Shown here in pieces: positions 14,408 through 40,905 of a stretch of 64,000 nt of DNA (the stretch's first letter is position 1; each line of letters opens with the position of its first letter). Origin of the DNA: Winogradskyella sp. (GTDB lineage: Bacteria > Bacteroidota > Bacteroidia > Flavobacteriales > Flavobacteriaceae); assembly GCA_002722255.1 (NCBI GenBank), contig PBLD01000001.1:397401-461400 (forward strand), read 5' to 3'. Position numbers and translations under genes: made by a program. Under the pieces are notes generated by a model. It had not been told where the DNA came from and ran no database searches. It saw nothing but the letters and a program-made list of their open reading frames with translations.

Positions 14408-14514
14408 TTTTCTATTTAGATTTAAGTTTAATTTCAAAGAGATTACTGCTTATTACTTATTAATAAGACTATGTTTATTAAAATCTTATAGTGAATAGAG
14501 CAGAATTAAAAAGA

Positions 14515-14532
14515 TACCTGCCTTCGCAGGTA
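14515..14532 (+). repeat. Family A palindrome, copy 1 (in the trpS leader)
   Basis: TACCTGC (14515-14521), loop CTTC, GCAGGTA (14526-14532): a perfect 7-bp stem with a 4-nt loop. It ends five bases before the trpS ATG. Confidence 0.9.
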
Positions 14533-14537
14533 ATATT

Positions 14538-20611: not shown

Positions 20612-20631
20612 ATTCCTGCTTTCGCAGGAAT
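20612..20631. repeat. Family A palindrome, copy 2
   Basis: ATTCCTGC (20612-20619), loop TTTC, GCAGGAAT (20624-20631): a perfect 8-bp stem. It lies between the TPR and DUF4292 genes, one base from the TPR stop codon. Confidence 0.9.
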
Positions 20632-22775: not shown

Positions 22776-22812
22776 TATTTTGTTTAATAATTGCCAGCTT
22801 TTAGAGATGAGA

Positions 22813-22830
22813 TTCCTGCTTTCGCAGGAA
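22813..22830. repeat. Family A palindrome, copy 3
   Basis: TTCCTGC (22813-22819), loop TTTC, GCAGGAA (22824-22830). It ends two bases from the stop codon of the nucleotidyltransferase gene. Confidence 0.9.
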
Positions 22831-22832
22831 CA

Positions 22833-23852
22833 CTACTCCATTACCGTATAATCTCCAATACTAATCTTAGTAAAATCGCCATTATATTTAACGTGGTTAC
22901 CAATCATAGCTTCGTCTAAATTAGCATTTTTAATAGTGGTCTGATTCTGTATTAAGCTATTTTTAACGGTTGAATTTTCAATAACGCAATCTTTACCTAT
23001 AGAAACATTAGGACCAACCGTAGCGTTCTTTAAAACCGTTCCTTTGGCGATGAAACAAGGCTCAATTACTTCTGAATTCTCTAAAACGACAGAATCGTCA
23101 ACTAATTGCTCTTCGCCATCTGCTTTTAAGAAGCCTAGCATCTTGGTATTGGTTTCTAGCGTTACGTTTTTATTTCCGCAATCCATCCACTCATCAACTG
23201 TACCTGTTTTGAAGACTTTACCATCTGCCATCATTCGCTTTATACCGTCGTTGATTTGGTATTCACCACCATTCATTACGTTTTCATCTAAAACCTCTTG
23301 AAGCTTCGCTTTTAAAACTGCAACATCTTTAAAGTAATAGATTCCGATTACGGCTTGGTCGCTCACAAAAGTTTCTGGTTTTTCTACAAGTTCAACGATT
23401 TCTTGATTGTCATTGAGTTTTACCACACCATAAGCCTCAGGATTATCTACTTGCTTAGTCCAAATCACACTGTCTGCGCTTGGGTCTAAATCGAACTCTG
23501 CTCTAATCAAGGTATCTGCATAAGCAATTACCGCAGGACCAGAAAGTGATGGTTTGGCACTCATAATAGCGTGACCAGTTCCTAACGGTTGATCTTGTCT
23601 GTAGATTGATGCTTTTGCCCCTAAATCTTCAGCCAACTCCGTTAAACTCTCAACAACATCATCTCCAAAAAATGCTGGGTCTCCGAGTACAAAAGCAACT
23701 TCTTCAATAGGTTGCTTCAACACTTTTGCAATATCTTTTACCAAACGATGTACGATGGGTTGACCTGCTACCGGAATTAATGGTTTTGGAACTGTTAAAC
23801 TATGTGGTCTAAGACGTGAGCCTCGACCTGCCATTGGTACTATTATTTTCAT
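22833..23852 (-). CDS. Sugar-phosphate nucleotidyltransferase
   Basis: A 339-residue nucleotidyltransferase that joins a sugar-1-phosphate to an NTP to form an NDP-sugar. The N-terminal signature MAGRGSRLRP, with VPKPLIPV just after it, is the nucleotide-binding loop. The C-terminal third has hexapeptide-like repeats (VLKNATVGPNVSIGKDCVIENSTV in shortened form), a left-handed beta-helix. RmlA-, GalU- and ManC-like substrates cannot be told apart by eye. It is part of the flippase-dut-nucleotidyltransferase-TPR series. Confidence 0.82.
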   Translation of the reverse strand: MKIIVPMAGRGSRLRPHSLTVPKPLIPVAGQPIVHRLVKDIAKVLKQPIEEVAFVLGDPAFFGDDVVESLTELAEDLGAKASIYRQDQPLGTGHAIMSAKPSLSGPAVIAYADTLIRAEFDLDPSADSVIWTKQVDNPEAYGVVKLNDNQEIVELVEKPETFVSDQAVIGIYYFKDVAVLKAKLQEVLDENVMNGGEYQINDGIKRMMADGKVFKTGTVDEWMDCGNKNVTLETNTKMLGFLKADGEEQLVDDSVVLENSEVIEPCFIAKGTVLKNATVGPNVSIGKDCVIENSTVKNSLIQNQTTIKNANLDEAMIGNHVKYNGDFTKISIGDYTVME

Positions 23853-23857
23853 ATTAC

Positions 23858-23875
23858 TGCCTGCGAAAGCAGGTA
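23858..23875. repeat. Family A palindrome, copy 4
   Basis: CCTGC (23860-23864), loop GAAA, GCAGG (23869-23873), extended by one G-T and one T-A pair. It lies six bases upstream of the nucleotidyltransferase ATG. Confidence 0.8.
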
Positions 23876-23895
23876 TCTTTTTTATATTAAACTTA

Positions 23896-23915
23896 ATTCC
23901 TACGAAAATAGGAAT
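23896..23915. repeat. Family A palindrome, copy 5 (mutated)
   Basis: ATTCCTA (23896-23902), then CGAAAA, then TAGGAAT (23909-23915). Compared with the other copies, one G-C pair has become A-T on both sides, so the stem is kept. It lies three bases past the GIY-YIG stop codon. Confidence 0.75.
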
Positions 23916-23918
23916 CTC

Positions 23919-24233
23919 TTATTCTCTTAGTTGATTGAAATTTAGATTCCAATTGGTACTCATATCTATCCAATTAGGATTCATTTCTTCTATCAATTCA
24001 ATTTTCCAATTTCTTTTCCATTTCTTGAATTGTCTTTCTCTCTTTTCGGCATCTATTCCGCTTTCAAACTCTTCAAAATAAACAAGCATAGTACAATTAT
24101 ACTTGGCTGTAAAAGATTTTGGATAAACTTTTAATTTATGCTCTTTTACTCTTTCTTCAATATTATCAGTAACTCCAATGTACAAAACTCCATTAGCTCT
24201 ATTGCTCATTATATACACATACCACAGTTTCAT
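23919..24233 (-). CDS. GIY-YIG nuclease family protein
   Basis: A 104-residue single-domain GIY-YIG (URI-type) protein. The two core strands are WYVYIMSN and GVLYIGVTDN, followed by the conserved Arg helix (IEERVKEHK) and a C-terminal basic helix rich in Lys, Arg and Trp. I chose ATG at 24233 rather than the TTG at 24239. The gene is bracketed by family A palindromes 3 bp beyond its stop and 7 bp before its start, and it interrupts the dut-nucleotidyltransferase order. The nuclease activity and target are not known; a link to palindrome movement is only inferred. Confidence 0.85.
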   Translation of the reverse strand: MKLWYVYIMSNRANGVLYIGVTDNIEERVKEHKLKVYPKSFTAKYNCTMLVYFEEFESGIDAEKRERQFKKWKRNWKIELIEEMNPNWIDMSTNWNLNFNQLRE

Positions 24234-24240
24234 ACTCAAG

Positions 24241-24258
24241 TACCTGCGAACGCAGGTA
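24241..24258. repeat. Family A palindrome, copy 6
   Basis: TACCTGC (24241-24247), loop GAAC, GCAGGTA (24252-24258). It lies immediately upstream of the GIY-YIG gene. Confidence 0.9.
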
Positions 24259-24362
24259 TCTCTTCTTTAAATTATACTTCCTTTCCTCATTTAATAAAAT
24301 CCATCTAGATTTGTTTATTATGATATAGGCACCTTCAATGTCCAATGCTTATTTATTATGAG

Positions 24363-24382
24363 ATTCCTGCGTTCGCAGGAAT
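24363..24382. repeat. Family A palindrome, copy 7
   Basis: ATTCCTGC (24363-24370), loop GTTC, GCAGGAAT (24375-24382). It directly abuts the dut stop codon. Confidence 0.9.
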
Positions 24383-24817
24383 TTATTTGGTGCCTGTACT
24401 TCCAAAACCACCTTCTCCTCTGTCAGTTTCAGAAAGTTCTTCGACTTCTATCCACTCTGCACGCTCATGCTTAGCAATTACCAATTGTGCTATTCGTTCT
24501 CCGTTTTGAATGGTAAATTCTTCGTTAGAAAGATTTACTAAAATCACTCCTATCTCACCTCTGTAATCTGCATCTACTGTTCCTGGTGCGTTGAGTACAG
24601 TGATTCCTTTTTTTGCTGCCAAGCCACTTCTTGGTCTTACTTGTGCTTCATAACCGATTGGTAATTCTATAAATAGGCCTGTGCCTACTATTGTTCTTTC
24701 TAATGGTTTAAGAACTCTATCTTCTGTAAGGTTGGCTCTTAAGTCCATACCTGCAGAAGCTATGGTTTCGTAATGTGGTAAATCGTGAATGGATTTATTT
24801 ATGATTTTAATTGTCAT
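24383..24817 (-). CDS. dut: dUTP diphosphatase
   Basis: Trimeric dUTPase that hydrolyses dUTP to dUMP and pyrophosphate, keeping uracil out of DNA and feeding dTMP synthesis. All five family motifs are visible: [39 protein letters not shown] and the C-terminal GEGGFGSTG. The 144-residue length is normal. Its start overlaps the stop of the upstream flippase gene by 4 bp (ATGA), so the two are coupled. Confidence 0.95.
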
Positions 24818-39838: not shown

Positions 39839-39879
39839 TAGATACTTAGATTTTTAGACCTATTAGACTATTAGATTCC
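39839..39879. repeat. Tandem TAGA repeat
   Basis: Five short units start with TAGA: TAGATACT, TAGATTTT, TAGACCTAT, TAGACTAT, TAGATTCC, with spacings of 8, 8, 9 and 8 bp. They begin 2 bp after the reductase stop and run into family A copy 8. Confidence 0.6.
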
Positions 39880-40905
39880 TGCCTTCGCAGGAATTACAGA
39901 CTTTATTTTTGACACAATAGCCTCAAAAGCAACACTTCCTGCTGCGTTTTCGTAGCCTTCAGGATATTTATTGCCGTAAATCGATGTTGGAATTTTTGGA
40001 TATTGGTCGCGATCCGCTGTAAGTTGAAAATCTTCAGGTTGATTAAAGGGTACAAAACCAGCGAAAGGGTGGGTAACTCCCCAAATCGTAATCACTTTTA
40101 CACCAAACATTGCAGCTAAATGGCCATTCCCAGAATCCATGGCAAGCATCAATTCTAAATTTGAAATTAGTGCCAATTCATCTTTAAAATCAAGTTTTCC
40201 TGCAACAGAAACCACATTATCATATTTCGCTTCAAAGGTATTAAGCGCTTCTATTTCTCTATCTCCACCTCCAAATAAGATAACCTTATAATCTTTGGAC
40301 AATTCCGAAATAACCGCTTCCATGTTCTCTAGTGGATACATTTTACTTTCGTAAGCTGCAAATGGAGCAATACCAACTAAAGTTTCATTAGTACTAATTC
40401 CTAAGTCTAAAACGGCTTTGGATAAAGGCTTTGCTTTTGGATATTTTGGCTGAGACAAATCAATCGGAAAATCCAAAGTCTTAAAAACATCAGCATAGCG
40501 TTGGTGTGTGGTTTTTAGTTGTTTTACTACTTCACCAGAAACTAAAACCTTCTTCTCTGCTCTTCCCTTATCTATCTGAATTACTTTTTTTCCGAAGAAA
40601 AACAATTTCAAAATTTTACTTCGTAAAACGTTGTGTAAATCTGCAACAACATCAAAGCCTAACGTTCTAAGTTCTTTTGATAGTTTATAAAGCCCTAAAA
40701 CGCCTTTGTGTTTGCCTTTAAGATCCGCGACATATACCTCAACATTTGGAATGTCTTCAAAAAAAGGTTTAAAAAACGCTCTGGTAACAACCGTTACTTT
40801 TACTTGCGGATGTTGTAAGGTTAATGCACGCAACACAGGCACTGTCATAGCAACGTCTCCCATTGCCGAAAACCTTATGACGAGTATGTGAGTGGCTGCT
40901 GACAT
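39871..40905 (-). CDS. Glycosyltransferase family 9 protein
   Basis: A 344-residue heptosyltransferase-like GT9 enzyme. The N-terminus ILVIRFSAMGDVAMTVPVLRAL and the AMDSGNGHLAAMFGVKVITIWG nucleotide-sugar site are typical. GT9 enzymes add heptose or similar sugars to lipid A core on the cytoplasmic side. The C-terminal end (VIPAKAGI) is encoded by family A palindrome copy 8, so the repeat has supplied its last codons and stop. It is followed on the same strand by nothing in the near region, and preceded by DUF4254. Confidence 0.87.
   Translation of the reverse strand: MSAATHILVIRFSAMGDVAMTVPVLRALTLQHPQVKVTVVTRAFFKPFFEDIPNVEVYVADLKGKHKGVLGLYKLSKELRTLGFDVVADLHNVLRSKILKLFFFGKKVIQIDKGRAEKKVLVSGEVVKQLKTTHQRYADVFKTLDFPIDLSQPKYPKAKPLSKAVLDLGISTNETLVGIAPFAAYESKMYPLENMEAVISELSKDYKVILFGGGDREIEALNTFEAKYDNVVSVAGKLDFKDELALISNLELMLAMDSGNGHLAAMFGVKVITIWGVTHPFAGFVPFNQPEDFQLTADRDQYPKIPTSIYGNKYPEGYENAAGSVAFEAIVSKIKSVIPAKAGI
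39875..39894. repeat. Family A palindrome, copy 8 (inside the GT9 gene end)
   Basis: ATTCCTGC (39875-39882), loop CTTC, GCAGGAAT (39887-39894), a perfect 8-bp stem. It is translated as part of PAKAGI at the GT9 C-terminus. Confidence 0.9.

Follow-up and report, generated by a model that had tools for sequence, protein, structure and literature searches.

REPs have been sorted into GTAG and CGTC superfamilies by Di Nocera, De Gregorio, and Rocco (2013; PMC3733652). As described in the accessible portions of that paper, a CGTC REP has a CGTC or TGTC head, a stem of 8 to 9 bp with AT at the foot, a loop of 4 or 5 nucleotides, and a CCA tail; Caulobacter crescentus is among the carriers, Gramella forsetii is also listed, and the repeats "apparently lack a dedicated transposase" (PMC3733652). 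GTAG REPs together with RAYT/TnpAREP form REPtrons. TnpAREP uses both tag and hairpin, according to the accessible part of a second report (PMC8266576). Caulobacter crescentus also has three small COG2827 genes, for which the available text of a 2007 paper guesses a role in repair (PMC1839093). A term search of the available text of a 2025 REP survey returned no mention of GIY (PMC12306157), and a search of open PubMed Central text (titles, abstract starts, and term counts, with bioRxiv and most subscription papers outside its scope) returned no paper linking GIY-YIG proteins with REP or CGTC palindromes. Here we describe such a link: small GIY-YIG genes are firmly associated with inverted palindromes, and the association extends to the polarity and the class of the palindromes.

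A GIY-YIG gene between inverted palindromes

The window, i.e., the whole 64-kb stretch analyzed, carries a single-domain GIY-YIG nuclease gene (23919..24233, minus strand, ATG at 24233, 104 aa) between dut, which encodes dUTPase (24383..24817, minus strand; PF00692, 8.1e-33), and a nucleotidyltransferase gene (22833..23852, minus strand; PF00483, 3.4e-25). In the profile search, its PF01541 match (2.6e-17) scores 63.3 bits against a cutoff of 22.6, and the three profile matches confirm the gene order proposed in a preliminary description of this DNA. The gene is bracketed by four palindromes of the TTCCTGCNNNNGCAGGAA type (here, A type), at 23857, 23896, 24240, and 24363, at most 1 base from the positions originally listed; the spacings originally given, 3 bp past the stop and 7 bp before the start, are correct. 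Scored as matches out of 16 against ATTCCTGCN4GCAGGAAT, the four reach 13, 13, 13, and 16, respectively.

When the TCTC side is taken as the tail, the true inverted pair around the gene consists of the palindrome 3 bp past the stop (23896..23915, plus strand; the 3' member) and the palindrome abutting the dut stop (24363..24382, minus strand; the 5' member), both with gene-side tails; the latter occupies the same place in L219, L221, and L223. The palindrome 7 bp before the start codon (24240..24259, plus strand) is an additional copy with its tail away from the gene; with 24363 it makes up a second pair whose tails point inward, and it is missing from L219, L221, and L223, relatives in which the gene is intact. 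The fourth (23857..23876, plus strand) lies just before the nucleotidyltransferase start codon and is kept in several relatives. The early picture of a gene boxed in by palindromes is confirmed, with one correction as to orientation: the inward-facing pair is 23896/24363, and 24240 points away. The GTC head is missing from all four gene-site copies in the window; other copies keep it, and a TGTC head is kept in L246, from the same genus.

Four further A-type palindromes are dispersed on the minus strand of the window, at 14514..14533 (score 13), 20612..20631 (16), 22812..22831 (15), and 39875..39894 (16), for a total of eight sites scoring at least 13. The background, a first-order Markov simulation rather than a strict shuffle, gave four sites at 13, one at 14, and none higher in 20 64-kb sequences combined.

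Palindrome anatomy and copies in the genome

In the assembly of the window's genome (3.21 Mb, 83.9% complete), there are 55 exact matches to the core CCTGCN4GCAGG and none to the reversed control pattern. Three core matches (G000:C1:606010, 614669, and 623328) are spaced exactly 8,659 bp apart, which suggests a long tandem duplication in the G000 assembly. Forty-two distinct copies from the window's genome, placed in one orientation, give the consensus ATTCCTGC-GAA(A/G)-GCAGGAATCT(C), so that each copy is polar. The stem, ATTCCTGC-N4-GCAGGAAT in the window and genome, has 8 to 9 bp with AT at the foot and a loop of 4 to 5 nucleotides, as in CGTC REPs. More generally, palindromes flanking GIY-YIG genes have a (C/T)GTC head pointing outward, a stem of 8 to 9 bp, a loop of 4 to 5 nucleotides, and a TCCA or TCTC tail pointing inward. 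TCCA is common among copies from all phyla and TCT among others, TCT(C) being the form in the window's genome, so that the tail, too, agrees with that of CGTC REPs. The same anatomy is seen in a Desulfobacteraceae bin (L198), where CGTCATTCCCGCGAAGGCGGGAATCCAG stands at both sides of a GIY-YIG gene.

The likeness to CGTC REPs therefore covers the (C/T)GTC head, the 8- to 9-bp stem starting with AT, the loop of 4 or 5, the CCA tail, the dispersed copies, and the frequent pairs. The differences are that here a GIY-YIG gene lies between inverted copies, whereas PMC3733652, in its accessible portions, found no dedicated enzyme, and that several palindrome classes (the bulged GAGCGNAGTCGA, CTGAA...TTCAG, TATCGAGA, and GCAATGAC) go beyond the plain stems of the available text of that paper. 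In its naming, the pairs are mostly head-to-head dimers; in the pairs seen here, the heads point outward.

The window's genome has seven PF01541 genes. Two lie in long frames, of 603 and 471 codons, and are inferred from this length to be UvrC-like. A-type palindromes bracket three of the remaining five (L003, L004, and L005). The other two (L001 and L002) belong to another nuclease subfamily and are bracketed by the different, bulged palindrome GAGCGNAGTCGA. In L001, the GIY-YIG frame has no stop and reads through the downstream palindrome into the next gene (a 442-codon frame); at a guess, that gene encodes a GHMP-type kinase. Among the copies listed, neighboring A-type palindromes with starts 250 to 450 bp apart number three in G000, one in G044, and one in G002, and all five pairs have a GIY-YIG gene inside. 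At L120 (G019:C20), one GIY-YIG gene stands in three tandem copies, partly truncated and with A-type palindromes between them.

Flanks of small GIY-YIG genes in other genomes

The preliminary description had likened the arrangement to that of REPs and their RAYT genes, with a different nuclease fold, and had proposed counting palindromes at both ends of GIY-YIG genes across the family. We scored flanks as the best ungapped inverted match between the 150 bp upstream and the 150 bp downstream, with a threshold of at least 13. The family set sampled 60 genera of the window's family, with one genome per genus. PF01541 genes are present in all 60; the matches listed yielded 105 small GIY-YIG frames in 91 loci, with frames of at least 200 codons (and hence L001) excluded and five small contig-end matches (G038:C40, G012:C10 twice, G018:C4, and G058:C117) left out. 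Four related proteins, used as queries against species genomes, gave at least 564 relatives, and the best 80 of these made up the all-phyla set; these seeds were found by using proteins whose flanks were already known. The third set comprised the small GIY-YIG genes listed from 24 whole genomes among those of the all-phyla set, except for one seed gene, from Microvirga, and six weak matches in frames of <200 codons. Full flanks were available for 102/105, 77/80, and 67/68 genes, respectively.

In the family set, 36/102 GIY-YIG genes (among the matches listed) reached 13, versus 1/134 other genes of the same loci; the sole control is a neighbor gene in L003. The all-phyla relatives, drawn from Bacteroidota, Alpha-, Gamma-, and Deltaproteobacteria, Chloroflexi, candidate phyla, and others (best 80 of at least 564), gave 49/77 versus 6/133 controls, and three of those six control matches are themselves A-type palindromes (L139 once and L156 twice). 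The 24 genomes gave 27/67 versus 1/80, a figure that splits into 18/23 for seed genes and only 9/44 for other genes. Allowing for about 18 double-counted genes, the flanked copies exceed 90 over the three sets (36, 49, and 27). Polarity follows the same trend: GTC-head hairpins with both heads outward flank 13/105 family, 44/80 all-phyla (best 80 of at least 564), and 23/67 24-genome entries, versus 3/263 and 0/80 controls, while the opposite polarity at both sides occurs at 1/105, 6/80, and 4/67 entries and at 2/263 and 1/80 controls. The unpaired CGTC/TGTC head that characterizes CGTC REPs is thus present outwardly on both sides in 44 of the 80 all-phyla entries. A stricter paired pattern (GTC-head hairpins 318 to 348 bp apart) matched 0/395 genomes of the class; we judged this pattern too strict, and the draw held only 13 same-family genomes besides G000.

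Hairpins are common in AT-rich intergenic DNA. Could the pattern be chance clustering or an artifact of composition? The same-locus controls, the mismatched flank pairs (only 9/298 reached 13 in the family set), and the shuffles and permutations described below all contradict this explanation, and we give it practically no weight.

GIY-YIG genes of the family that lack palindromes had been named beforehand as counterevidence. Such genes do exist: 66/102 (among the matches listed) fall below 13, beside the 36 that reach it, so that this objection holds in part. Some of the unflanked genes belong to outer clades, the tRNA-linked ones included, that seem to have no such palindromes, and others are degenerate on one side. 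We rejected the idea that all small GIY-YIG genes belong to a hairpin system, since several clades have hardly any palindrome labels. Small GIY-YIG genes stand in tandem in L060, L067, L088, L095, and L096 (from G011, G018, G027, and G042); upstream of several of these, by reading alone, the frames resemble translated tRNA sequence. This tandem, tRNA-linked group is apparently a separate repeat type without GTC hairpins.

Nuclease subfamilies and palindrome classes

Do different nucleases go with different palindromes? Palindrome classes were defined by eye from the flanks, and the tree was not used in defining them. The tree contains 99 of the 105 family-set frames (proteins of at least 70 residues) over 102 columns. 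The same class was found at both flanks of 41/99 tree proteins, versus 3/130 control genes. On this tree, in which many forks are unresolved, the 10 classes require 9 changes, which is the minimum, whereas 500 label shuffles all required at least 24 and 500 shuffles inside genomes all required at least 11; one of the 10 labels, carried by two tandem, tRNA-linked copies in L067, is possibly spurious. Of the 41 labels, 39 fall within two large clades, and the other two are on tandem copies in a tRNA-linked outer clade.

A class-free test repeats the comparison by asking whether the upstream flank of a gene has an 11-mer in common with the reversed downstream flank of a gene from a different genome; because upstream is compared with reversed downstream sequence, similarity from shared position is avoided. 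Sharing rises with protein identity, from 80/7,226 pairs below 0.4 to 55/1,520 at 0.4 to 0.5, 49/464 at 0.5 to 0.6, and 98/206 at 0.6 or above, and none of 1,000 permutations matched the difference between the highest and lowest bins. There is a one-to-one correspondence between nuclease subfamilies and palindrome classes, and this result is firm. With flanking, polarity, class match, and the motif-free test all in agreement, the relation likened to that of REPs and RAYTs holds in the sets tested.

The nucleases themselves are predicted to be active enzymes. Among 108 flanked entries, in which about 18 genes appear twice, 107, 108, 108, 106, and 108 have Y, Y, R, H, and E, respectively, at the GIY-YIG active-site positions, which we take to be the catalytic ones; since these residues are kept, the enzyme should cut. 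The solved structures closest by sequence are the UPF0213 proteins 1zg2 and 1ywl. A dN/dS of 0.08 for the window-type gene indicates purifying selection.

Orthologous sites with and without the element

The site between dut and the transferase was compared in 30 same-genus genomes. The gene is intact in 4 and decayed or truncated in 8; 1 genome (L233) has a hairpin pair without the gene, and 3 have downstream palindromes only. An intact position conserved in all relatives and without empty sites had been listed at the outset as evidence against the proposed relation; what we find is that 14/30 genomes have no A-type palindrome there, 9 of which have just 25 to 50 bp between the genes. The gene is also absent from the dut site in the four nearest relatives (96 to 99% identity in the transferase). 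We considered whether the dut-site copy is a recent insertion and rejected this, as L054, in another genus (G029), has the gene at the same place. Comparison of these sites, together with the dN/dS value, indicates that the window-site copy is old; selection has maintained it in certain lineages, and many others have lost it. In L233, the gene-bearing form seems to have undergone an internal deletion that left the pair behind.

Is it possible that the gene serves the host, for example in house-keeping, structure-specific trimming of hairpins, and that the flanking hairpins regulate or terminate the nuclease gene? Purifying selection and the shared position in two genera speak for such a role, as does the guess that small COG2827 proteins serve DNA repair (PMC1839093, in its available text). 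But loss and decay are frequent among the same-genus genomes, flanked copies are numerous (>90 in three sets), and a terminator does not need conserved head/tail polarity; we give this reading only a very slim chance of being right.

A second site, between RidA and an aldehyde dehydrogenase (ALDH) gene, was compared over the stretch from an anchor to ALDH, or over 400 bp where no anchor was found. Here, the GIY-YIG gene is present in 1 of 30 genomes, that of the window, which has two A-type palindromes; any A-type palindrome is found in 3/30, and five genomes have 38 to 40 bp and none. The insertion recoded the ends of both neighbors (L026:1-423 and L026:736-2202): palindrome sequence has turned coding, giving the RidA C terminus FLRRQESQNK and the aldehyde dehydrogenase start MKNNEIPAYAGIK. 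At the opposite end of this ALDH gene, toward SDR, B-type nuclease elements are present in 6/30 genomes and A-type hairpins are present in 6 others; L246 and L264 have two A-type copies each, L250 has a single B hairpin, and L262 has neither. This intergenic hot spot after ALDH also holds a different inverted repeat, AAGCCCATC(C)TTCC..., in L244, L253, L260, and L263. Orthologous sites thus occur in four states: empty, occupied, decayed, and with hairpins but no gene.

GIY-YIG is a classic homing-nuclease fold, and these proteins share catalytic domain and residues with GIY-YIG homing endonucleases and with COG2827/UPF0213 proteins; they differ in that no intron or intein was seen around the gene, whose bounds are class-specific hairpins. 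Could the nuclease gene be a parasite and the hairpin pair its target, such that pairs spread by other means and the gene recombined into them after cutting? The fold, the common occurrence of gene-less hairpin pairs, and the fit between flanking class and nuclease are all as such a history would have it. At RidA/ALDH, however, 27/30 genomes have no A-type palindrome (the one hairpin family counted there) in the stretch examined and the one gene carrier has two, so that hairpins and gene seem to have arrived together or in quick succession, and L233 looks like the reverse path, with the gene lost and the pair left. We consider this history improbable.

Between GTC heads, 52 of 59 bounded elements measure 351 to 474 bp. 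None of the 59 has a target-site duplication of 4 to 6 bp, and duplications of 2 and 3 bp are at the shuffled level; in this respect, the elements differ from typical MITEs and DDE-type insertion sequences. They resemble REPINs and MITEs in that gene-less inverted pairs lie in intergenic DNA, L233 being like an internal deletion. No newly moved copy was caught in the site comparisons.

Dispersed copies and other enzymes in the same genomes

Exact A palindromes number 28, 4, 13, 12, 30, and 2 in the genomes with an A-type nuclease and average 1.1 in the other 54 (17 nonzero; maximum of 22, in G006). For C type, the nuclease-bearing genomes have 8, 7, 0, 2, 21, 23, and 8 copies, and the others average 1.4, with a maximum of 17 in the window's own genome; for N type, the nuclease-bearing genomes have 7 and 1 copies, and the others average 0.26, with a maximum of 6. 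Copies of a genome's own class are higher where the nuclease is present (A, P = 1.6e-5; C, P = 2.7e-4). The fit has exceptions. G006 has its 22 A-type palindromes with only decayed relatives of the A-type nuclease, at no fewer than four places; dead nuclease copies as the explanation were dropped, as loci L345 and L357 show no A-type palindrome, and the exception stands. The C-type nuclease was not found in the window's 84% complete assembly despite the 17 C-type palindromes, G009 has the C-type nuclease and no exact C copy, and N type is poorly matched, with six copies in G029, where no N-type nuclease was found. As G006, the window's genome, and G029 show, an assembly can thus contain palindromes without yielding the enzyme.

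Could the hairpins instead be spread by a different enzyme, for instance a transposase of the HUH type (RAYT), with the nuclease gene as cargo? RAYTs are thought to spread GTAG REPs (PMC3733652 and PMC8266576, in their accessible parts), and Y1_Tnp genes are present in 6 of 12 element-bearing genomes, two loci having inverted flank matches of their own (L373, score 28; L370, score 15). In the other six genomes, including the 84% complete genome of the window, however, no Y1_Tnp gene was found; a GTC-head hairpin was found at 0/13 Y1_Tnp loci, with flanks taken at fixed offsets; and the available text of PMC3733652 reports no tyrosine transposase gene flanked by CGTC units. Apparently, no HUH enzyme need be present in the same genome, and we regard transport as cargo as highly improbable.

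A proposed mechanism

In total, we think there is a good chance, well above even, that a short mobile element of the CGTC-REP superfamily is present here in its nuclease-bearing form, made up of the gene and its flanking palindromes, and that this element resembles a REPtron with a GIY-YIG enzyme in place of an HUH enzyme. As in REPtrons, one nuclease gene lies between inverted tagged hairpins that are also dispersed without a gene, and enzyme types each have their own hairpin types. The differences from REPtrons are the GIY-YIG fold (PF01541) versus HUH, with no Y1_Tnp match in the window's assembly, the (C/T)GTC head, where present, versus the GTAG tag, and the lack of a known strand-joining step.

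The proposed unit would be (C/T)GTC-hairpin-TCCA, the GIY-YIG gene, and TGGA-hairpin-GAC(A/G), mostly 350 to 475 bp in length, and dispersed single hairpins and tail-inward hairpin pairs would be its gene-less forms. The nuclease likely acts on the hairpins and is probably their mobility enzyme; recognition, cleavage, and cleavage-driven movement are what we infer as the best explanation. Specifically, we posit that it would recognize its own hairpin class, probably in single-stranded or extruded form, and would nick the hairpin foot near the GTC head, as suggested by analogy with the use of tag and hairpin by TnpAREP in the accessible part of PMC8266576. Repair or replication would then copy or move the hairpin-bounded DNA into other intergenic sites. 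As far as we know, GIY-YIG enzymes are known for cutting and not for strand joining, and hence insertion is not accounted for by the nuclease by itself; candidates for the step from cut to insertion are gap repair, template switching, and single-strand events.

Does the proposal extend further? We would give even chances that CGTC REPs in all bacteria, those equated with dRS3 and RPE in the available text of PMC3733652 included, have a GIY-YIG nuclease as their dedicated mobility enzyme. The defining paper, in its accessible portions, left widespread CGTC palindromes without a known spreading enzyme (PMC3733652), and the class match names a candidate. Small GIY-YIG proteins, for their part, have until now been guessed to be UvrC-like repair nucleases. 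If the proposed mechanism is true, REP-like systems have at least two separate origins, with nucleases that are unrelated (HUH and GIY-YIG), which would show how dispersed hairpins and a single enzyme gene become mutually dependent. A nuclease acting in this way would represent a new class of transposition enzyme, based on the cutting of hairpin DNA, and the element, at about 360 to 400 bp, would be among the smallest self-mobilizing DNAs.
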